Below, piece after piece: positions 11,813 through 32,444 of a stretch of DNA of 64,000 bases; within the stretch, counting starts at the first letter, position 1, and each line of letters starts with the position of its first letter. This DNA comes from Auricularia sp. M13. Taxonomy: Eukaryota; Basidiomycota; Agaricomycetes; Auriculariales; Auriculariaceae. The DNA lies in contig CM073193.1 in NCBI GenBank assembly GCA_037042915.1, positions 2,356,001 to 2,420,000 on the forward strand, read 5' to 3'. The translations under genes and the position numbers were made by a program. The notes beneath the pieces were generated by a model. That model worked only from the letters and a program-made list of their open reading frames with translations. It had not been told where the DNA came from and searched no databases.

Positions 11813-14800
11813 GCAGACTCAGTGTCAGGCGCAGGTGTGTTGGGCTTGTCACGAGTGCTGCTTGCAGTTGCTGCAGCCTTGGCCGCAGCGTCTGCCTCTG
11901 AGCGAGAGTTGGTCCCCAGAGGGACGGCATTGCTGCCAGACACATTGGCCTTGGGGCCAAGTGCAGCTCTGCTCTTGGTGCGGCGCAGCTTGGGCGCAGT
12001 TGAAGCCTTGGGTGCATCATGTCTGGGCTTGCGCAGCGCCATGCGACGCCGCTGCCAGATCTTGCACTGGGAGTCACGCACAACATGTGCCCCACCACAG
12101 TGAGGGCACTTGAGCTGAGTGTGCTCGCAGTGAGTTCCAGGTGCATGTGCAGAGCTGTAGAACTCGCACTCCATCTGCTCGCAAGTGTGGTTGGCAGTGA
12201 TGTGGGTGCTGGCACTGCAGACTCCACAGCGCATGGGCTTGTCACAAATGCGAGCAGTGTGGTCAAGGCTGCAACACCTGTCGCAGGTGCGCAGACGAGG
12301 CATGTCCTCAAAGTAGCGAACTGAGCAGAGGCGTCCAAAGACACTGACTGCATGCTCAACTGCATAGCGAGCATCTGCATCACTCAGGAATGCCAAAATG
12401 ACAGAGCCTGAGCTCTTGCCAGCAAGGTCTGCTGCACTTCCCAGCCAGCGTGGGATGGTGGCCCAGTCAAACTTGTGAGTGTTGAACTCAACAATGTCTG
12501 AGAGGAGGTCTTGCCCAGTAGGCAGTCCGTCAATGTCATGAACTCGAGTCGAGACACCATTGACTAGCACTTGGTGCCAAGGCTCGTCGCGAGACGCCTT
12601 GATGAATGAGCCAGAGTCTGGCACGATGGCAGATGCAATTGCATCTCCATGTTCAACCAGATCTGCTGAAGTCAGTCCATCTGCCGCAACAACCACAATG
12701 TTGCCAGAGGCGGTGGTGTCCACACTTGTGACACGAAGTGGGAGCTTGGCAGGCGACTTGCTCTTGTGAGGAGCAAGCGCAGTGTTCACTGCGGCGCGCA
12801 AGCGGCTTGCATTGTTGCGCACATGAGCAGTGAGCTCAGGGGTGGCACGGACGCTCAGGATGAGACGGCCTGGGTGGTGGCGCGCACGACCATTGGTAGG
12901 AGGTGGCTTTGGCACCGCACTGGGACGGGCAGGCACCACAGTGCCTTTGGCAGCTGGCTGAGCAGCACGCGACGCATAGGAGCGGCCAGGTGCGCTTGCC
13001 TTTGCAGGAGCGGCTGTAGGAGCTGCTGCTGCTGCAGGCTGCTGCTGTTGGGCACTTGAAGGCGCAGAGGCCTGTTGGGCAGTGAGGAAGGCAATGTTGC
13101 GCTTGACCTCGGCCATATCCGAGACAAGGGTGTCAAGGAGTGTGGGCTGTGGGCAGGACAAGTACCCAAAGTGTTGCTCTGCTTCGCCTGCAGCTGCCGA
13201 AGAGCACATGACTCTGGCAAGCTCAGTGACACGCTCTGCTGTCCACAGGTCTGCCCAGCGCCAGTACTGGTCTTCCTGGTTCCAGACAGCCGCATTGACT
13301 GCAGTGGCACGTGCAATGAGGTGCTGCAGGTCAGACCTGATGTCATTGACTGCCTCCTCAAGTGGTGTGCCGTCTGGCAGACAGCCCAAGTTGGCTGGCA
13401 CATTCTGTGCCCTCCAGTCCTGAACTGAGTGCACAGAGTGCATGTCCTCGTCACCACAGACTGACATAGTCTCCCCTTGGGGAATTGAGGTGCTAGGGCG
13501 AGCATAGGGCAACTTTGTTGCAGCAGAAGACAACTTGGTTGCCTGTGGTTCACCTGGGGCAGAACTGCCCCAGTTATGCGCCGATTGAGGCTCTCCAGGA
13601 GCTGAGTCGACACCCCAGTCATTTCTGACCGAGGGGGCGCGATCTGAGCCGCTGCCATGTGCAGCAAGTCGAGGAGCGCGTCCAGAAGCAGTGGGAACGA
13701 GGCCCTGCATTCTGGATGCTCCCTCAGCCTGTTCTGGTGAGGCCGAACTCGTTTCGACGGTTTTGGGCGCAGCAGGTGAGCTAGTGGCTCGATATGCGGC
13801 GCCCTGCTCGAGGACGAGCCCATCAACCTTTCCTGAGGCCCCCAGCTGGTCATCGATACCAATGCCCGTTGAACGAGCCGGAATTGCGCCAAGGGCATCC
13901 TTGGACACCCCAGAGCGCACAGTAGATGTTGTGAGTGCAGCAGGCTCGTCCCAGTGTGCAGTGCACTAAGGGGGCGAGGAGCAGAATGCCCGTTGAACGA
14001 GCCGGAATTGCGCCAAGGGCATCCTTGGACACCCCAGAGCGCACAGTAGATGTTGTGAGTGCAGCAGGCTCGTCCCAGTGTGCAGTGCACTAAGGGGGCG
14101 AGGAGCAGACACTGTGGGCCGCATTGAAGCGGTAGGAGCTTGTTCTGAGCGGTTTGGAGTCAGTACAGCCAGCTGCTGCACACCAGAGTGTGCAGCTCGA
14201 GTTGGGGAGGCTGGAGGGGACTGCTGGGCTCCTCCTGCGCGTTCCAGCGCTTCCTGGAGGCGGTACCGGTCCGCTCCGGCCGGAGCCGATGGGGCCACGT
14301 CACCCTCGCGCAAAAACGAGCCTGGGACGCGCACAGAGTGCGCTCTGGTGCCAGGAATGGTGTGGAATGCAGGAGGGGATGTGGGAGATGTGTGTGCGCG
14401 AAAATCGAGTCCAGAAACAAAGGGGTCGTCCCCAGGGGCTGCAAAGCGAGCCTCCTGGTTTGTCTCGACCCCAGGATGCGAAGAACAAAAGGAGGAGCGT
14501 CTATAACGCTTGGGAACTGGCTGGGGCGCACGTCTGAGTCTAGGAGGGCTGTCAGACCGCTTCCTAGTGAGCTGCCTGCTCTGCAGCTCGTCAGGAGTGC
14601 TCCTGGGGCTCCTGGGGGTCAACCGGCGTACACCCGACTGCACAAAGCTGCCAAATCGCTGCAGAGCCGTGGGGGAGTGCGCAGGGTCATTATCTAGCTC
14701 CATGCAAGCGAGGGAAGGAGAGGGGGAGTGGTGGTGCGCTCTAGGAGTCCCAGTTTTGTCTGCAACTCGCACCTGCGAATTCTCGTGATCCACCAGCCCA

Positions 14801-19717: not shown

Positions 19718-19833
19718 TGTACCAGGCTCGGCTGGACATGCTCGGATGTACATACAGAGTCCGCTATCTCACTTGGTTCCGTTCCACCGAGACCACCCGC
19801 TGCGGGCCCCCCTGGCCCTTCCCAACTGCCACA
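19718..19833 (+). repeat. Left 116 bp LTR
   Basis: Begins TGTACCAGGCTCGGCTGG, ends AACTGCCACA, near-identical to 21152-21267. Confidence 0.88.
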
Positions 19834-21151: not shown

Positions 21152-21267
21152 TGTACCAGGCTTGGCTGGACATGCTCGGATGTACATACAGAGTCCGCTA
21201 TCTCACTTGGTTCCGTTCCACCGAGACCACCCGCTGCGGGCCCCCCTGGCCCTTCCCGACTGCCACA
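21152..21267 (+). repeat. Right 116 bp LTR
   Basis: Begins TGTACCAGGCTTGGCTGG, ends GACTGCCACA. Preceded by the polypurine tract at 21139-21151 and followed by the ATGT duplication. Confidence 0.88.
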
Positions 21268-22350: not shown

Positions 22351-22838
22351 CCCATCAGCAAGGGCGGGTACCGGACAGTTCTCCTTTTCATAGACGTCAA
22401 CACGCGCTTCGTGTGGGGCTACAAGTCGACCAAGAAGGCTGGTTCTGGTGCGTTTACCGTCGCGAGCCTCTGCAACATGAACAAGATGTTTGTGTCGCTC
22501 AAGCTCTTCAGCACTGACACAGCCTGCAATATGTCCTTTTCAGCACATTCTCAGTGGCACAAAAGGACGTGAGAAAGCATTGAAAAAAGTTCGTGCATTG
22601 GCACTAATGCACGAACTTTTTTCAATGTGTTCTCAAAGCCTATTGTGCCACCCAAAAAGTATTGAAAAGGACATCTTGCAGGCTGTGTGACGGCGGCAGC
22701 CACTTTGATTGTAGGGAGGTACATACATACTGTAGGGAGGCCAGCATCGAGTACACAAAGACACCTCCCTACTCTCCGCGGGCAAACAGCCTCGTCGAGG
22801 AGACAAATAGGACACTGCTTGGCCACCTGCGGCGATAC
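22351..22838 (+). pseudogene. Old Ty3/gypsy integrase, segment 1 (outermost host of the nest)
   Basis: Plus-strand reading LLFIDVNTRFVWGYKSTKK (integrase first catalytic Asp), then FSTDGGSHFDC (second Asp) interrupted by the MITE at 22518-22687, then IEYTKTPPYSPRANSLVEET (catalytic Glu in NSLVEE) up to GHLRRY at 22838. The frame continues at 32445 after the 9.6 kb gypsy insertion and at 36679 after the hAT insertion. The fold and spacing match integrases of Agaricomycete gypsy polyproteins. Upstream parts (gag, RT) are not preserved here. Confidence 0.85.
22518..22687. mobile_element. 170 bp palindromic MITE, TSD TGA
   Basis: Inverted ends CACAGCCTGCAATATGTCC and GGACATCTTGCAGGCTGTG. The element folds on itself through the centre TTCGTGCATTGGCAC / TAATGCACGAA. 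TGA is duplicated at 22515-22517 and 22688-22690. Deleting the element with one TGA restores FSTDGGSHFD in the integrase. CAC...GTG ends with a 3 bp duplication suggest a CACTA-like or Harbinger-like driver. Confidence 0.92.
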
Positions 22839-23615
22839 TGACGCGCAGGTTCCGGGGCAGAAGGAGCTAGGCAGTCGGGGGCGGGGACCCGGTAGGAATA
22901 CTAGCCCGAATAGCACTGAGAGCGGATAAATCCCCTGTATGCGTGCGGAATAGAGTGAGAATGTTGATAGTGAGCGAGTAGGAAGCAGTCAGACGGATGG
23001 CCGCCAATCTGACGCTGTGAGAACGATCTTGAGGAGCTAGAGGGCCGATTTGAGCTTGAGGACTGAGAAGTTCAGAGAGAGAGTGGGGAACTATATTCTG
23101 GGGATCAGGATGCACAGTCAGAGGTTTAAGTACATTGGAAGCAAGCATATGGACGACGGAAAGCCGGATCTCAGACCGTGTACAGCAGGCGGAGGCAGAA
23201 TGGAGAGGATGTGAGAGGATGGTCGAAAGGCAGCAGAAACGATTGGATTGTGTTCAGAATGACGATGCGAGGCGATTGGTATGCATATCGTGGGGGGAAA
23301 GGTACACAGACGAGAGGGGGAAGTGTCTCAGACAGGGGGAGAGCGGGTGCAACCGCGGTGATGGTGCCGGACGATTTGATAAGGCCGTCGCGGTCATCCC
23401 GGGCTATCACTGCCGGATTAGCGAGAGGTCGAGAGTGCAAGACTGAAGACGAGGTGACGAAAGGCTAGCGTTAGAGGACGACGCAGTGTGCCATGAACGA
23501 GAGCAGCTGTGAGGCGGTGCTGACAGCGCAAATCCGGCCTAATCGGGAACTTTCCATATTCGGAATGGCAAGCTGGCCGCGCTGCGCCCCTGGTCGCCAC
23601 GAGCGTAGCTCGTCA
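22839..23615 (-). repeat. 3' LTR of the gypsy element (777 bp)
   Basis: On the plus strand it begins TGACGCGCAGGTTCCGG and ends GTAGCTCGTCA (TG...CA). Differences from the other LTR: second base G against A, GGAGCTAG against GGATCTAG, and GAGGCGG against GAGGTGG. Confidence 0.95.
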
Positions 23616-23685
23616 TATCCCGGGGTACTTGAATCATGGCCGTCCCCGGCCATCATAAAATCCGAGCGAGGCGAGGTGAGAGGCC

Positions 23686-24581
23686 ATGGAAACCCCCAAC
23701 GCAGAAAACCCCCCCGAGTCTGGCGAAGCGCGCGACAACGACGGCGGCAATCGTCCTGGTGAGCAGATCTTCCGCGAGGCGGCAGGCAGCTGACGTCGCA
23801 GACGGTTGTCTGTTCTGCGCCGACGGAGTACACGAGCGCGCCGAGTGCCCGAGGATGTGAGTGCCGTCGCTCAACGTGGCTCGCACTGACGATTGTAGCG
23901 CCAATCGACGGTTCTCAACCCGCCGCGACTTCTACTTTGACGAGGTAGAACTGGCGAGCGGATCTGTGAGTCGAGTCGCGCAGCAGTCGCGAACCGATGC
24001 TGAACGCCCCGTAGGAGGTCGTGGATGGAGCGTTTGCCGGCGCGCGCAACCTCCTACTCCGCGTCGGTCTCAGCACGCGAAGCGCGAAGCTGGCGCTCGA
24101 TGCTGCCTCCGCCGCTGTCTTCTTCACCGAGCTCACGCTGCTCGCGCATTCGATCCTTCAGGACAAGCCCGGCTCCGATGTTGATGGCCAGCGCATTCAT
24201 GATCTCGTCCGCGACTGCGAGCGACTGAGCGTAAGTCGCGCGCGTGAGGCCCAGGAGACGTCTAATAAATAAATTCAGTTCATCTTAGTCAATTACTTCG
24301 GATGCAGCAAAGTCGGTAGCGACGCCAAGGAGCTGCACGAGGGGCTGAAAGAGAAGCAGAAGCGGCTTTGGTCGCGTATCGAGGCGGGCGAGTACTTCGA
24401 CGGCGGCCTGGGTATGATCAAGAACAAGTACGACTTCTGGGAGGAGCCCGTGACGGAGATCGGCGTCGTGGGCGCGCTGTACCGCGTCCGCGGAGACTGG
24501 GGCGATTCGGCGGTCACGCTGCGCGAGTTCGTCCAAGCGCTGCGCGAGGAGTTCGACAGGTCCACACGGTATATGTATTAG
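23686..24581 (+). CDS. Antisense spliced gene inside the gypsy element, CCHC zinc-knuckle protein
   Basis: It sits on the strand opposite to gag-pol, between pol and the 3' LTR. Exons 23686-23758, 23790-23856, 23899-23965, 24015-24230 and 24279-24581 total 726 nt, which gives 241 codons plus stop with no internal stop. All four introns are GT-AG (31, 42, 49 and 48 nt; the last has CTAAT near its end). Exon 2 encodes CLFCADGVHERAEC, an exact CX2CX4HX4C knuckle. Exon 4 is helical (TRSAKLALDAASAAVFF). Exon 5 is charged (LKEKQKRLWSRIEAGEYFDG) and ends STRYMY-TAG, 8 bp from the pol stop. An alternative start at 23636 would avoid the unusually short first intron. The function is unknown. RNA or nucleic-acid binding is inferred from the knuckle only. 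Confidence 0.72.
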
Positions 24582-24589
24582 GCGCGCAG

Positions 24590-27500
24590 TCATAGCCTGA
24601 GGGCGTCGTCGCCGTCGTCCGCAACGTCGTCCTGTTTTCCATCGTTCTCGGCGTCACCGTCAAGCTTTTGTATTAGACGCAGCTGAGCCTCAGTGGCCTC
24701 CAATATATCCGCAACGTCGTAGAGCATGCCGTAGCGCGGGAAGTAGGGGATGACGCGGAACCGAGCACAGCGCAAGATGGAGACCGAGCCGTCGAGTTCG
24801 GCGATGGTATATGCACCACCCGCACGGCGTCGTACGACAACCATGGGCCCGTAGTAAGGATCCTCAGTTTTCTTGAGACCAAGATCTTTTTCGATGCGTG
24901 TGTTTCGGACGAGCACGAGCGCCCCAGGTTCGAATTTCCAGTCGCGGACGGAGCCGCCGTGACGGCGCATGTAGTCTTGTATGTTCTTGAAGCGCGAGTC
25001 GAGCACGCGCTCCCGAACGATAGCGAGGTCGTCTTCGCGGCGCTGCAGCTGCCGGGCGCGCAGAGCGATGAGGTCGGTCGTCAAAAGTGGGAATTCAGGC
25101 GGTTGTACGAGGTAGGTAGCCTCTGCGAGGTCGAGCGGCATGACAGGTTCGACACCGTGTGCCATATAAAACGGAGACATGCCCGTCGTTTGACGCACAG
25201 TCACGCCTTCGGCCCATAAGACGAGATGATAGACGTCATGCCAGCGCGACATTTCGCCGTCGCAGAGCTTGACAAGTGATTCGCGCACATCGTAATGTTT
25301 GTGCTCCACTGCCCCATTCGCCTGCGAGTTGTAGCCCGAAATCTTTATATGCCGTATGCCGTAGCGACGCTCGAGTTCGTCCAGCGCGGCGACGAACGGC
25401 TTGCCATTGTCGGTAATCCACTCGCAACAGAAACCCCAGCGGCAGAGGATATCCTCGAAGAAGAACTCGGCCAGGCTCTTCGCGGTCTCACGGCGCAACG
25501 CACGTGCCTCAGGCATCAAGGTCAAGCTGCAGCGCGCCTGTACGAGGTATTTGAACCCTCGAGACGGCGGCAGGTGCATGGTATCGATATAGACGCGCTG
25601 GAATAGAGTCGCAACAGCCGCCACAGTCGGCGGAATCTTCAGCTTGAACGTCGTGCGGCGTTGGCAGGTGCCGCATGTCGAGCAGTACCATCGCACATCT
25701 TCTGCAAGGCCCGGCCACCAGAAACACTCGCGAATGAGCCCCTCCGTCGGGAACGTGCCTTTGTGACCTGTGTTGTCGTGCGCGGCCTCGAGAATCGCGA
25801 CTCGTCGTGCAGGCTCTTGGACCACAATCTTGTGTCTCCCGTGTTCGTCACGGCGCATCAACCGTCCTTGCGCAGAGATGAAGAATTTCGACGCCTGACG
25901 GACGAACCAATGAACATGTTTCGCGTCGAGTGTCGAGGGTTTCTGGAATGTGCGTAGGTAATCTTCGAAGTCCACCAGCTGCGCGTCCTTGCGTTGTAGA
26001 GCACCAGAACGCGGTGGAATAACGACTGAGCCGTCCTCGAGCACGTTGGCGGGTAGAGACAGTGTAAGACGCTCAGGTATATCGGACAGCATAATCTGCG
26101 CGGATGACGCGGCGAACGGGCCTCCCCGCGGTACTTGGCTGTATGCGCGCTCCCGCACGCTCGCAGCGTTGCGCACGAGGGGGTTACCAGAGCGCGAGAC
26201 GACGGGTAATGTGTGATATGGAAGCGTGAGGGAGGCGGCGAACCAGAGGCCGAGCGCGCGGTCAAGCCACTCTTCGGCGTTGTCTGACTCCTGAGGATCG
26301 TTGGGCGACGGACGTCGACGTGACAGACCGTCAGCGGCGGCATGTCGATCGGCGGGGACGTGCACGAGCTTGATATTAAATAGCTGAACGCCTGCGATCC
26401 AGCGGTTTATCGTGGCGTTGGGCTGAAGGTCGGGGTGATTCAACATGCCTTTGATATATTTCGCGTCCATCTCCACCAGCAGCACTGGCAGGCCGAATAC
26501 GTAGACGCGAACGTTGCGCAGCGACCGCCAGAGCCCGTAAAGCTCGATCTTTGGCTGGGAATAACGAGCCTCAACCTCATTCCAGGCGATGCTGCCGAAC
26601 CGCGACGGGCAGCGTTCTCCTGCCGGTCCAAGCTGTAAGAGGATGAATCCAACGCCATATATCGAGGAATCCACAGCCAGGATAACGTCGCGACCACACT
26701 TATAGTCGACGGGCTTGATGCAAGGAGCACGTGCGACGGCTTCCTTGAGACGGAGCATCGCCTCGTGGCAGTCGTCATCGAATTCGAACGCAATATCCTT
26801 CTTCACGAGGTTCGTAAGCGGGCGCGCTATGAGCGCAAAGTTGCGTATCCACGGCCGTGCGAGACCAACGGTGCCGAGGAAGGCGCGCACGTCACTGGCG
26901 TTCTTGCATCGCGGCCAGTCGAGCACTCGCTGGACCTTGTCCTGCAGCGGACGTCGACCCTCAAATGAGACTTCGTATCCAATGACGATCAGGTGCGGCA
27001 CGCATATCTGAGCCTTCTTGCCCGAGATGGAGGCGCCCGCATGGCGTAGGCGCTGAATGATTCGGTTGAGGGAGTGCGCATACTCCCATATGAAGCGCCG
27101 GATGCCTTCGTTGTCCGGAATCGTCTCATAAGTGCCATCCTCGCGTCGAAAATGGCTGCGTGGTCCCAGCGGGTGCACGTCGTCAACAAAGACCTCCACG
27201 TCATCAGGCATCTCGGGGCTGAGCAGGAACAGGAGGTTGCCGTGTTGAATAGCGACGGCGTTTGAGTAGCCTTGCGGCAGACAGGTGAGACGTAGCGTGC
27301 CGACGAGCGTCTGGAAAGTGGTCAAGTCGCGCGAGTCGGGGTGCACGAGCTGTAGGTCGTAAGAGCTGAATTGGTCGAGAGCGCCGATGCAGGCGCGCCC
27401 CGCACATCGCTCGGAGACTTCGTCCGGAGACGGCAGCGTCCCCGCGTCGCGAATCGTCACGCTGTTGAGCCGCTGGGGGTCATGTACGATACGGAGGGAG

Positions 27501-27769
27501 GAGCCATCCTTCTTTACGACGCAAAACCAGCCTGAGCGGTATGCAGAAGTTGAAGGCTCGTACACGCCCGCCGCGATCTTGTCCTTCAAAAGCGCGACAA
27601 CGCGGTCGCGGATGGCGTGCAGAATGGGGATGTTTCGGTCTGTCCCTGACAGGCGGAAAGTAGTCGTCTCAGAAGCGACGACACTCGCGCTCTTCCCAAG
27701 CAAAAACCTCTTGATGGTGCTCGATGATGAACTCGAACAGCCTGACTTCCTGCGGCCAAAGGAAGCCAT
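24590..27769 (-). pseudogene. Gypsy pol: reverse transcriptase, RNase H, integrase
   Basis: Domains in order: RT (KIAAGVYEPSTSAYRSGWF, then GALDQFSSYD with catalytic Asp, LPQGYSNAV, EVFVDDV box), RNase H (ILAVDSSIYGVGFILLQL, KIELYGLWRSL, HAAADGLSRR), zinc-binding HHCC (HDNTGHKGTF ... CSTCGTCQ), and integrase core (VYIDTMHL, ITDNGKPF, NGAVEHKHYD, giving D, D, E), then a C-terminal domain. The ORF is open for 1,059 codons. It lacks its own N-terminal linkage: the preceding sequence HHQEVFAWEERECRRF ends at a TGA (27669-27671), and the expected DDYFPPV that follows lies in that other frame. As written, pol is disconnected by a stop and a frame change. Confidence 0.88.
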
Positions 27770-28710
27770 CCTTGTCGAGCGCGAATCCCATCATTCTTTC
27801 GCGGGTGAGATGCGCTGTGGTGGGCGCCCAACGCGGAGGATGCGTCGGCAACACCGGTAGCCCGTCCATGCAGTCGAGCGGTCGACGTCGTTCAATGCGA
27901 TATTCCTCAGGCATTCGCTCCTGGAGCGGCTTCACCTTCTTCGCGACGGGCTTATAGGGCTTCTTCGGGCGCCCAGTCTCGGGCTTAGGGCCATCTGGTA
28001 CGTGACGAGCGCCGTTGGCGGCGTATTCGACCTTGATTTCCGAGAAGACTTCGGCATACGACTGAAGGGCGGCGGACTCGGGCTGAGCGGGCATGTACTG
28101 CAGATAGAACGTGTATTCGTCATCGCCTGCAGGCGGTAGCGATACAAATTCCACCGCAGAGGACGGTGGGACGGACGGCGGATCAGACAGCTCATAAATG
28201 AGGCAGTCTGCGGACGGACGGACGGCGGACAGACGGACGGACGGACAGATTGGCGGATAGACGGACAGATGCGTAGCGGACGGCGGATCGGACAGCTCAA
28301 AGCTGGGTAGCGTGGGCGTCGCGGAGGAGTGGTTCCTTGAGTAACGCGCACTCGCGGCGCGACGGACGTCTCGTCCAACGGGGCTACCACCCGGGCAGCT
28401 CGGTTCTGATCTACAAAATACGTTGTTAATTTCGCGCGATATTGGGGGAGATTCCGGTCCATAAGATCGACAAAGAGCGGGGTGAGCAGCGGCCGGACGA
28501 GATAGAATGAGAGCATAGACAGGATGAGGAGGAATTTGGACTGGAGCGCGGATTCGAGCATATTCAGGGCGAGATAAAAGAGTGGAAGCACGGCTATATA
28601 CGGGTATGCGTGAGTAAATGATAACCGGACGTTCTGGAGCGGTTCGGACGAGGGAAGGGGCGGCAGCGAAGTGGTATGGTATACGGCGGTGCCAGGGCGA
28701 CCTTCCCCGC
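27669..28710 (-). other. Gypsy gag-pol linker region, third frame, with (GGAC)n-like repeats
   Basis: The minus-strand frame carries DEYTFYLQYMPAQPESAAL, a basic KKPYKPVAKKVKPLQERMPEE stretch (split here as KKPYKPVAKKV and KPLQERMPEE) and MMGFALDKDGFLWPQEVRLF, which normally lead into RT in this polyprotein family. A plus-strand GGACGGACGG microsatellite lies at about 28200-28260. The frame differs from both gag and RT. Whether this is decay or a recoding arrangement cannot be decided from one copy. Confidence 0.55.
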
Positions 28711-31590
28711 TCAAAAATCCAGCGGCATCGATTCTGGGCGCGGAGAGCGGCAAGCACACGTGGGGATACGGACCGAACGCCCCGTGTTATCGTCGTTGAG
28801 GGTAAGGAACGAGCTGCCGTCGCCACGAGTGTCTTCAGTAGCGCGGGCAAGAGCGAGGAAAGGGCGGCCGAGGAGCAGCGAGAACGGCGCGTCCTCAACA
28901 ACGTGCACGCGCAGGTGGAAAGTGAGGCCAGCAATGACGACCGGCAGCACGCAGAGACCCAGCGTGAGGTTGGTAGTCTTGTTCGCGGCGGTCAGGTTGA
29001 CCCGGTGTTGGGCGTCGATCGGACTGCCGAGTGCCTCCCAGAAGGCCTGGCTGATGATGACTAGCTGTGAACCATTGTCCACAACGCCCTCAGCGCGGAA
29101 GTCGCCAACGAGGCAGTCGAGGTAGCGTAAGGGCAAGGCGGCTTCGGCGGTGATTAGATCCCGCGAACGCTCAGCCGGCTCCACTTGGCGGAAATTAAAA
29201 ACGTCCGCTCCTTCCACAACATCGCCGGCGCCGGTGAATCCAACGACAACGCGCTTCGTGGACGCCTGGTCCTTCCAATGGCGACGCAAGTACGGGCTCA
29301 TGGCGAACAGCTCCTGCACGGTGAGCACTACCTTGGACTCAAGGATCCGCTGGTTGATGATTTTTGCCAGGCCCTCGTCCTCCAGCGGCGCCTGCAGCCT
29401 GAACTGCGGGCGGGGAGCAACGGCGGGCACAACAGCGGGCGCAGCCGCACGTACGGGCAGAGGTGCGTCCCGGTCGGGTACTTCCTCGATCGTCACGGCA
29501 GGTACTGACCGGCGTGGCGGCGCCGTTGCAGATCCCGGCGCGATGAACCGAGACGCCGGCGGCGCGCGCTCAGCAGCGTCGTCTCGCGCGGGGGGAATAC
29601 GGTCCACAGTCGCCTCGAAGTGCGGAGGGCGATTGCGGGAAGGCTCGACGCGAGCAGCAGCACTGGCATTCGCGGTTTTGTCGTCGTTCTTCGGCGCTTG
29701 GACGGGGCCACCGCTGCGCAGCCCAGGGCGGCGCGGCTGACCATTAACGGTACGCCCCTTCTCGTACGCGTAGACGTGCTGCATCATAACGTCATACCAA
29801 GCAGCTTCTGCGTCTTCAGATTCGAATTCGGGAATGGAGAATTGCGGAAATGGCGTCTTCGTTGGATTGTCGAAGAACGTCTCGCCCAATTCGATTAACA
29901 TCGCTGTCGCCGACGCGGACCCCTTCGCCGCATACTCCGGGTGAAGGCGGTTGAACTCCATGACCTTGTCGCGCAACGTCGTGCCATAAGTGGTGCGTAT
30001 CGCCTCGCCGTTCGGATAAACGACGCGGCCCTGATCATTCTTAACGCAGCGACCAGCCTTCATGTCCTCGGCGAGCGGCGCGCATTGCGCGATGCGATGC
30101 TCGCCGCCGCAATAGTAACAGTTCGAATAACGAGTGGCAGGCGCGGCTCCGGAGACGTCAGCGAGAGCGTGCGTCGAGGTAGCAGCCGCTGCCGCCGGCG
30201 CGGAAGTCGGAGCAGGTGCAGAACGGCGTTCGAGCGCGTCCATGCGTGCACTAATGCGTTGCAGCAGCCTGAGCGTCGGATCTTCGACCTTGACGGTGAC
30301 TTGAGGCGCGACAGCAGGCGGCGACGCGGCGAGCGGCTTCGCAGCGCCCGCGCGTCGTTTGCTCTCGGCTTCTGCGTCCTTCAAGATTATCTTCGCCTGC
30401 TTGAGCGTGTCCGCGACGGACCACTCGCTACGGTGCTTGTCCTTGTGCTCGGCGATCAGGCGCGCGATGAGCTCCTGTCCGAGTGACTTCTCGAGCACAT
30501 CAACGTAATCTTTCTGGATTTCTTCGTCGTGGATGGCCTTCGCGCGTCGAACATCGGAGGCGAGCGCGCGGAACTCACGCGTGAACTCGCCCAACTTCTC
30601 CGTGGTACGTATCGTCGTTGTCATTGCCTTCGCGACGAAGTCGTCGTAATCCGCGCAACGGAAGTCGGACGGAGCCTCAGCGTCGACGTAATCCTCGATC
30701 ATGCGCATGCGGAACGCGTCCCACGACGTCGGCGAGCAGAATTCGTCATAGCGTTCGACGAGAGTGCGCGGCTTCGCGGTCATGTACTGCACGATCCGCT
30801 CAATAGCGGTCTTGTCGTCGTATTGCGCAGCATCGGTGAACGCCTGGTAATCGCGAAGGAACGCGACGAGCAAGCGCCCATCACCGTCGAAGTGTGGGGC
30901 GCGACGCTCCTTGGGCATCGGCATTTCAGCTGGTTGCGCCATCCTTGGAATTTGCGCGGTTGGCGACTGCTGAGGTGAAGGCTGGGGTGGAGACGGAGGA
31001 GGAGACGGAGCTCGAGGTGAAGAAGGCGAGCGAGGCGGCGGTGGAGATGGAGGAGGAGGCGGCGACGGCGGAGGGCTCGGCGAGCGCGGATGTGGTACGC
31101 TGAATCGGGCGAGGAAATCCGCGACTGACGGCAGGTGAGACGGACCCGCGAGCGATGAGAGAGGCACTGACGACGCGCGAGCAGGTCCGTAGCCTGTAGG
31201 CGATGGCGGTTCGGACTCGGAGCCGCGCGACGGTGGATGCGCGGGACGGACTGGACTCGAAGGAAGCGAACGTGGACCACTCTCGAGTTGATGCGGCCGC
31301 GGTGATGGGGTACGAATACGATCTTGCGACCCCGAGGGAACGAGAGGGGTAGGTGCACTAGCAGACGCGACGACGGATGGGGCGGTCGCTTGTCGTTCCG
31401 CGCGCGCGCGATCGGACGGCGACGGCTTGTGTACGAAGGGTTGCGCGAGCGACGACGGGGGTTTGGGCTTGGCAACCGGCTTGGTACGCTTGGCAGTTGG
31501 GGGAACGACTGGACTGTCGGGTTTCGGTGCTCGGTGTCGGGTACTGGACTGTTGACGGTCGTAGAGGCTGCGACGAGGGTCGGAAGCCAC
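28711..31590 (-). CDS. Gypsy gag plus aspartic protease
   Basis: A 959-codon ORF: a Pro/Ser-rich N-terminus with low-complexity PPPSPPPPR runs, a capsid-like helical region (HFDGDGRLLVAFLRDYQAF, then FREFRAL-type motifs), an Ala-rich linker, and a knuckle CYYCGGEHRIAQC (CX2CX3HX4C). Towards the C-terminus it has a retropepsin: GVVDNGSQLVIIS (D-N-G in the position of D-S/T-G) and LLLGRPFL. A fused gag-protease separate from RT is one known arrangement in this family. The Asn in DNG is unusual but seen in fungal gypsy elements. Confidence 0.88.
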   Translation of the reverse strand: MASDPRRSLYDRQQSSTRHRAPKPDSPVVPPTAKRTKPVAKPKPPSSLAQPFVHKPSPSDRARAERQATAPSVVASASAPTPLVPSGSQDRIRTPSPRPHQLESGPRSLPSSPVRPAHPPSRGSESEPPSPTGYGPARASSVPLSSLAGPSHLPSVADFLARFSVPHPRSPSPPPSPPPPPSPPPPRSPSSPRAPSPPPSPPQPSPQQSPTAQIPRMAQPAEMPMPKERRAPHFDGDGRLLVAFLRDYQAFTDAAQYDDKTAIERIVQYMTAKPRTLVERYDEFCSPTSWDAFRMRMIEDYVDAEAPSDFRCADYDDFVAKAMTTTIRTTEKLGEFTREFRALASDVRRAKAIHDEEIQKDYVDVLEKSLGQELIARLIAEHKDKHRSEWSVADTLKQAKIILKDAEAESKRRAGAAKPLAASPPAVAPQVTVKVEDPTLRLLQRISARMDALERRSAPAPTSAPAAAAATSTHALADVSGAAPATRYSNCYYCGGEHRIAQCAPLAEDMKAGRCVKNDQGRVVYPNGEAIRTTYGTTLRDKVMEFNRLHPEYAAKGSASATAMLIELGETFFDNPTKTPFPQFSIPEFESEDAEAAWYDVMMQHVYAYEKGRTVNGQPRRPGLRSGGPVQAPKNDDKTANASAAARVEPSRNRPPHFEATVDRIPPARDDAAERAPPASRFIAPGSATAPPRRSVPAVTIEEVPDRDAPLPVRAAAPAVVPAVAPRPQFRLQAPLEDEGLAKIINQRILESKVVLTVQELFAMSPYLRRHWKDQASTKRVVVGFTGAGDVVEGADVFNFRQVEPAERSRDLITAEAALPLRYLDCLVGDFRAEGVVDNGSQLVIISQAFWEALGSPIDAQHRVNLTAANKTTNLTLGLCVLPVVIAGLTFHLRVHVVEDAPFSLLLGRPFLALARATEDTRGDGSSFLTLNDDNTGRSVRIPTCACRSPRPESMPLDF

Positions 31591-31642
31591 GGGGACGACG
31601 CGGGACTGCGGATTGGGTTGCTATGGGCCTACCTACCTGCAG

Positions 31643-31660
31643 TCCCTGCGGTGGTCACCA
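31643..31660 (-). promoter_or_regulatory. Primer-binding site of the gypsy element
   Basis: Three bases inside the 5' LTR, the minus strand reads TGGTGACCACCGCAGGGAC, the complement of a tRNA 3' end finishing CCA. It shares TGGTGA-CACCGC with the site in the miniature element at 19836. So the two may use related tRNA primers. Confidence 0.6.
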
Positions 31661-31663
31661 GTA

Positions 31664-32440
31664 TAACGCGCAGGTTCCGGGGCAGAAGGATCTAGGCAGT
31701 CGGGGGCGGGGACCCGGTAGGAATACTAGCCCGAATAGCACTGAGAGCGGATAAATCCCCTGTATGCGTGCGGAATAGAGTGAGAATGTTGATAGTGAGC
31801 GAGTAGGAAGCAGTCAGACGGATGGCCGCCAATCTGACGCTGTGAGAACGATCTTGAGGAGCTAGAGGGCCGATTTGAGCTTGAGGACTGAGAAGTTCAG
31901 AGAGAGAGTGGGGAACTATATTCTGGGGATCAGGATGCACAGTCAGAGGTTTAAGTACATTGGAAGCAAGCATATGGACGACGGAAAGCCGGATCTCAGA
32001 CCGTGTACAGCAGGCGGAGGCAGAATGGAGAGGATGTGAGAGGATGGTCGAAAGGCAGCAGAAACGATTGGATTGTGTTCAGAATGACGATGCGAGGCGA
32101 TTGGTATGCATATCGTGGGGGGAAAGGTACACAGACGAGAGGGGGAAGTGTCTCAGACAGGGGGAGAGCGGGTGCAACCGCGGTGATGGTGCCGGACGAT
32201 TTGATAAGGCCGTCGCGGTCATCCCGGGCTATCACTGCCGGATTAGCGAGAGGTCGAGAGTGCAAGACTGAAGACGAGGTGACGAAAGGCTAGCGTTAGA
32301 GGACGACGCAGTGTGCCATGAACGAGAGCAGCTGTGAGGTGGTGCTGACAGCGCAAATCCGGCCTAATCGGGAACTTTCCATATTCGGAATGGCAAGCTG
32401 GCCGCGCTGCGCCCCTGGTCGCCACGAGCGTAGCTCGTCA
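31664..32440 (-). repeat. 5' LTR of the gypsy element (777 bp)
   Basis: Near-identical to 22839-23615. It carries the promoter for minus-strand transcription by family logic. TATA and start site were not assigned. Confidence 0.95.
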
Positions 32441-32444
32441 ATAC

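Follow-up and report, generated by a model that had tools for sequence, protein, structure and literature searches.

The window, the whole 64,000-nt stretch of Auricularia sp. M13 DNA analysed here, carries an LTR retrotransposon on its minus strand and, on the plus strand between pol and the 3' LTR of that element, a predicted gene of five exons (Table 1). RNase H precedes integrase in pol, and this order together with the LTRs and the target-site duplication makes the element a Ty3/gypsy retrotransposon. Its LTRs are identical at 774 of 777 positions, with one of the three differences falling in the terminal dinucleotide of the 5' LTR. This near-identity shows that the element is young, and along with the ATAC duplication it bears out the initial annotation of a young gypsy element. 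The gag-protease ORF of this copy contains a Gag knuckle, CYYCGGEHRIAQC, with the spacing CX2CX3HX4C, while its aspartyl protease matches are weak and lie just under the Pfam cut-offs. A Pfam scan of the element returned no reverse transcriptase (RVT_1) match passing an E-value of 0.001.

The antisense and pol genes are arranged tail to tail with 8 nt between their stops, and the antisense ORF has the placement that defines an antisense additional ORF (aORF-3R) of an LTR retrotransposon, between pol and the 3' LTR and antisense to gag-pol. Five exons opposite gag-pol, four GT-AG introns, an exact CX2CX4HX4C motif and a stop 8 bp from the pol stop had all been proposed for this locus, and each was recovered in the window copy, with the gene at the proposed coordinates and the motif at residues 27-40 (C27-X2-C30-X4-H35-X4-C40).

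A putative promoter region precedes the gene, at the junction of the 3' LTR and the internal region. The hairpin just inside the LTR, TGGCCGTCCCCGGCCA, occurs at 10 exact places in the genome compared with none for a reversed control pattern, and one-base variants of it are present in copies D, E, F57 and F58 (the copies are introduced below). The TATA-like CATAAAA, whose function would be that of a core promoter element, stands 32 nt ahead of the ATG in copies A (the window copy), B, D and E and 33 nt ahead of it in C. In F57 and F58, TATAAA(A/T) lies 94-95 nt ahead of the start codon, and no TATA-like box was found before the ATG in F24, F28, F29 and F23. The hairpin may be part of an antisense promoter, may serve in priming plus-strand synthesis, or may do both.

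Table 1. Features of the retrotransposon and its antisense gene, in window coordinates
Feature	Position	Strand	Details
LTR retrotransposon, Ty3/gypsy-type	22839-32440	-	LTRs, target-site duplication and domain order
Target-site duplication	22835-22838; 32441-32444		ATAC, 4 bp, two copies
3' LTR	22839-23615	-	777 bp, TG...CA; LTR comparison
5' LTR	31664-32440	-	777 bp; LTR comparison
gag-protease ORF	28711-31620	-	969 aa
pol ORF	24590-27769	-	1059 aa; RNase H followed by integrase zinc-binding domain
Hairpin	23637-23652		TGGCCGTCCCCGGCCA, just inside 3' LTR
TATA-like box	23654-23660	+	CATAAAA; putative function
Antisense gene	23686-24581	+	five exons, opposite strand to gag-pol
Exon 1	23686-23758	+	73 nt, ATG
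Intron 1	23759-23801	+	43 nt, GT-AG, CTGAC branch motif
Exon 2	23802-23856	+	55 nt
CCHC motif	23807-23848	+	CX2CX4HX4C, residues 27-40
Intron 2	23857-23898	+	42 nt, phase 2, CTGAC; both other subfamilies share its position and phase
Exon 3	23899-23965	+	67 nt
Intron 3	23966-24014	+	49 nt, phase 0; window copy lacks CTRAY
Exon 4	24015-24230	+	216 nt
Intron 4	24231-24278	+	48 nt, phase 0, CTAAT; position common to all three subfamilies
Exon 5	24279-24581	+	303 nt including stop
Recombination breakpoint (approximate)	24780-24800		fine identity scan, break near 24.8 kb

Several further features were noted in and around the element. A third open frame lies between the gag-protease and pol ORFs (27669-28991, minus strand). 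Positions 22517-22688, ~150 bp away from the 3' LTR, form a foldback with inverted repeats of ~83% identity over 174 columns, which is perhaps a small inverted-repeat element. Two 116-bp direct repeats (19718-19833 and 21152-21267), 98% identical and separated by ~1.3 kb with ORFs, have TG...CA ends by eye and are perhaps the termini of a tiny TRIM/SMART-like LTR element. A perfect 124-bp tandem duplication occupies 13861-14108.

The spliced reading frame and its homologues

Spliced reading frames in the window interval were enumerated with GT-AG introns of 35-75 nt. No model with zero to three introns is open, and 2193 models with four introns are, 30 of them 714 nt long. The homologue-supported model is among the latter length, with 714 nt including the stop and 237 residues; it replaces the 726 nt and 241 residues of the initial annotation, a length shared by 5 of the 2193. 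Open models with up to four introns were also permitted by 107 of 200 dinucleotide shuffles of the same interval, so that from the single sequence by itself a claim of a gene would not be safe. Adding a stricter splice filter (donor GTRMG plus a CTRAY branch motif) gave no discrimination: it left no model in any of the 200 shuffles and none in the real sequence, which is rejected because intron 3 of the window copy has no CTRAY.

Homologues were therefore decisive, and they were sought in the genome assembly (52 Mb, 14 contigs). A DNA search yielded at least five close copies, named A (the window copy) to E. The spliced frame is intact in A-D and broken in E by one small deletion in exon 2, and all five copies retain the GT and AG ends of all four introns. 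Exon identity between D and each of A-C is 73-74%, compared with 54-57% for whole introns and 34-40% once the splice ends are trimmed off to leave the intron cores; for the close pair A-B, exons (94.8%) barely exceed introns (92.8%).

More distant copies came from LTR and protein searches followed by a profile scan of candidate loci, and later protein searches agreed. At eight distant loci the gene runs antisense to pol and adjoins sequence resembling the edge of the window LTR. Five of them (F24, F25, F28, F29 and F23) form one subfamily and three (F57, F58 and F59) another, F59 being a near-duplicate of F58 with 3 exon differences. Indels break the spliced model of F25, those of the other seven being intact, and antisense protein identity between subfamilies is 18-27%. 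The gene thus lies opposite pol at no fewer than 13 loci of one genome in three subfamilies, supporting the earlier proposal that it travels with the element. Loss of the ORF or random stops in other copies would have spoken against that proposal, and the spliced ORF is intact at 11 of the 13 gene-bearing loci, E and F25 being the broken ones. Pol and antisense stops are separated by 8-10 nt in A, B, D, F57 and F58 and by 55-61 nt in F24, F28, F29 and F23.

Intron positions are largely shared. In all three subfamilies, a phase-2 intron follows the knuckle and a phase-0 intron precedes the last exon, each at an equivalent position. Intron 3, in phase 0, is common to A-type and F24-type genes and missing in the F57-type (F57 and F58), whose N-terminal part is longer, and intron 1 is missing in the F24-type. 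The first introns of A-type and F57-type genes are both in phase 1 and split an Asp codon, at differing distances from the knuckle. These shared positions, and the four introns with intact ends in A-E, fit the suggestion that the introns survive retrotransposition. Across 38 introns from A-E and six distant loci (all but F25 and F59), 36 start with GT, two with GC and all 38 end with AG. A CTRAY branch motif lies 6-32 nt before the end of 31 of the 38, compared with 2.2 expected from shuffled interiors, a count that is somewhat favourable and not a strict probability because the distant gene models were chosen by eye, guided by the splice consensus, and the loci are related.

It is this shared exon structure, with the conserved splice ends and dN/dS values of 0.08-0.21 (see below), that decides for a predicted gene, and we regard its reality as close to certain. 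A chance open frame with imagined introns, the reading that the 107 permissive shuffles would allow, is extremely improbable and was rejected: reading frame, splice ends and branch motifs are conserved and dN/dS is low over the intact loci, and such cross-copy evidence outweighs a shuffle control on a single sequence. The predicted gene thus appears to be a genuine accessory protein gene of this Ty3/gypsy-type lineage, tail to tail with pol and interrupted by short spliceosomal-type introns, and we infer from the gene models that it is spliced and expressed.

Two other hairpin loci, L036 (C11:1410674) and L060 (C10:269136), showed no convincing gene and no window pol or gag match nearby in one tblastn search (E 0.001, run without a positive control), and they are possibly non-autonomous relatives. 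A divergent homologue with its own knuckle, CX2CX6HX2C, was observed outside recognised elements of this kind at L061 (C2:2562200-2563700) and L062 (C1:5655200-5656700), which lie within large, nearly identical duplicated stretches of C1 and C2. The stretches beside L061 gave no match to window gag or pol, again in one tblastn search at E 0.001 without a positive control. This homologue, for which provisional splice sites were placed by eye and which is counted in none of the tests, may be a relic, part of another element or a host gene.

Selection and recombination

Substitution rates point to constraint at the protein level. The NG86 omega is 0.140-0.182 in all six A-D pairs, where third positions change most, and 0.083-0.213 in all seven pairs from the other families, values that are rough for several pairs because dS exceeds 1 and is near saturation. 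Copies E and F25 were omitted from this set because they are broken, and F59 because it nearly duplicates F58. In a six-frame control on exons 4-5 of three pairs, the annotated frame was each time the only one free of stops and had the lowest omega; the next-lowest, 0.185-0.292, belonged to the opposite-strand frame that shares its third codon position with the annotated frame. The range of 0.08-0.21 in 13 of 13 pairs, far from the value near 1 that would have counted against a gene, shows purifying selection on the predicted antisense protein.

LTR pairs were compared at 10 of the 13 loci (those other than F57, F29 and F23) and are 99.7-100% identical, except for one of two E blocks (97.7%). 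The broken copies E and F25 are also young, the F25 pair being 100% identical. Despite their near-identical LTR pairs, the copies have diverged from one another by dS of 0.15 to more than 1, which suggests that the lineages separated while still replicating and that selection acted during the mobile life of the element.

Comparison of A with B revealed that the gene has a history distinct from that of pol. Between these copies, dS is 0.15 in the antisense gene and 1.0 over the final 209 codons of pol, and identity in 150-nt windows is 90-98% over 23589-24788 and 72-86% over 24789-26288. The 3'-LTR side of the breakpoint between these blocks resembles copies B and C, and the remainder of pol compared does not. 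Inside the 3' LTR, A-B identity is 82-98% and lowest in the outer part, so the exchanged block comprises the gene and at least the inner LTR. The A-B break shows that the predicted gene and its adjoining LTR recombine separately from pol. Between B and C, identity falls from 88-94% to 72-82% past ~25.84 kb.

The last 208-209 codons of pol, the part compared, have omegas of 0.045-0.074 in all nine pairs, a set that omits F23 because its longest open pol stretch aligned poorly (28-36% identity). For A and F24, the antisense proteins share 21% identity, compared with 59% for pol. By both measures, the predicted antisense protein evolves faster than pol.

The antisense protein and its possible role

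The predicted protein has an N-terminal CCHC motif followed by an acidic domain of ~180 residues (pI about 5). The His of the knuckle shifts between subfamilies, giving CX2CX4HX4C in A-D, CX2CX3HX4C in the F24-type and also CX2CX6HX2C, with C-X2-C and the final C-P constant throughout. Pfam scans of four and nine members gave weak matches in single or few members, the best being zf-C2H2_10 (E 0.0027, one of nine members), and no zf-CCHC match at E<=1 among the nine. PDB profile searches returned noise, with no hits at E<=5 in one search and 21 at E<=10 in another (best 0.17), and of 12 stretches in viral contigs picked up by pattern with exon 5, none was confirmed. Profile hits to the CCHC zinc knuckles of retroviral nucleocapsid, AIR2, LIN28 and ZCCHC8 were very weak (E 0.34-6.5); the predicted motif has in common with them C-X2-C-...-C with a His between, but it differs from them in its variable His position and in lacking a Pfam zf-CCHC match. 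A hhalign comparison with the Gag of the element aligned knuckle columns only (E 0.02, probability 2.3%), and an origin of the whole protein from Gag was rejected since the similarity is confined to the knuckle. Descent from TRP28 or another Pfam family was likewise rejected, as the scans held no such match: neither TRP28 (PF04195) nor bZIP was matched up to E 1 in the four and nine members. Judging from Pfam and PDB, the predicted ~180-residue domain is without a clear known relative, and the knuckle motif, with no Pfam or PDB match beyond it to the same effect, suggests that the protein may bind nucleic acid.

We propose that the junction of the 3' LTR and the internal region holds a Pol II promoter that would drive a separate antisense mRNA. 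The product of this mRNA would act on RNA, DNA or Gag of the element itself and so regulate its expression or replication. The template for reverse transcription would be the sense genomic RNA, and the introns would persist because they go unrecognised in that strand. Such a regulatory accessory mechanism has about an even chance of being correct.

Other roles can be set against regulation of the element. The protein might instead be a second nucleocapsid-like factor or partner of Gag, a structural aid to replication that would attach to genomic RNA or cDNA within the particle and not be a regulator. Its knuckle resembles that of the element's own Gag in the hhalign columns, and the F24-type spacing CX2CX3HX4C is exactly the spacing in the Gag of the window copy, but the similarity ends with the knuckle, the protein is acidic, and a separate antisense unit would be ill-suited to a structural part needed in fixed ratio to Gag, which makes this role unlikely. 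We consider it doubtful, too, that the gene is host-derived or shared cargo that counters host silencing or benefits the host and has no direct part in replication. Its pace relative to pol (omega 0.08-0.21 against 0.045-0.074, A-F24 identity 21% against 59%) is that of genes in conflict with the host, one homologue (L061/L062) lies outside recognised LTR elements, and dsRNA could arise from the antisense mRNA, which probably overlaps pol. Against such a cargo role, neither Pfam nor PDB yielded a relative among known suppressors or host genes, and omegas well under 1 indicate constraint and not diversifying selection at the level of the gene.

The likely overlap with pol, suggested by the 8-10 nt between tail-to-tail stops at five loci, raises another reading, that the antisense RNA alone matters, for example in copy-number control by dsRNA or interference, and that the ORF is incidental. 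Purifying selection on amino acids in the spliced frame, together with the freer divergence of the introns, makes this very unlikely, and dN/dS largely refutes it.

Antisense genes in this position have precedents. Plant Ty3/gypsy elements carry antisense ORFs between pol and the 3' LTR (Grande GENE23, RIRE2, Retand TRP28), and according to PMC7264820 and PMC11963269 these resemble the present gene in position, orientation, conservation over copies and families, unassigned function and suggested regulatory role. They belong to another kingdom. The gene described here has three to four short introns, which mostly occupy shared positions, and its knuckle is N-terminal; in the main text consulted, neither paper uses the word intron. 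A fungal case is brtn, antisense between pol and the 3' LTR of Botrytis cinerea Boty (Zhao et al. 2011), likened here through the descriptions that cite it (PMC7264820, PMC8365987). A chromodomain is described for a Boty-like gag-pol (PMC4227169), whereas the window pol gave no Pfam match to that domain at E<=0.001. The initial annotation knew of no fungal antisense gene with multiple introns. That stands insofar as our literature search, with most subscription papers outside its scope and so no proof of absence, found none, but a fungal antisense gene as such had already been described in Boty.

Deltaretroviruses offer another parallel. HBZ of HTLV-1 and APH-2/3/4 are regulatory proteins made from spliced antisense transcripts at the 3' end (PMC10186651). 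Both systems place a spliced antisense gene beside the 3' LTR, here as a predicted gene structure; HBZ and APH differ in being retroviral, and HBZ has a bZIP domain where the present protein has a knuckle motif and an orphan domain. By analogy, the proposed role would be comparable in kind to that of HBZ/APH in HTLVs or of GENE23 in Grande. The broader reading, for which we put the chances slightly below even, is that the gene represents an old, HBZ-like class of multi-intron regulatory genes in fungal LTR retrotransposons, encoding an orphan zinc-knuckle protein, one that predates the split into at least three subfamilies, outpaces pol and is shuffled as a module with the LTR. If so, the antisense accessory gene of complex retroviruses would have been invented independently, and the introns would serve as a strand-specific sign that reverse transcription uses sense RNA only.

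The role of antisense genes in LTR retrotransposons is described as an open question in PMC7264820 and PMC11963269, and this family offers intact copies in young insertions under strong purifying selection with which to address it. Expression could be shown by simple RT-PCR, since the introns set the antisense mRNA apart from both genomic RNA and DNA, and the swaps of gene and LTR between lineages provide natural combinations for tests of specificity.
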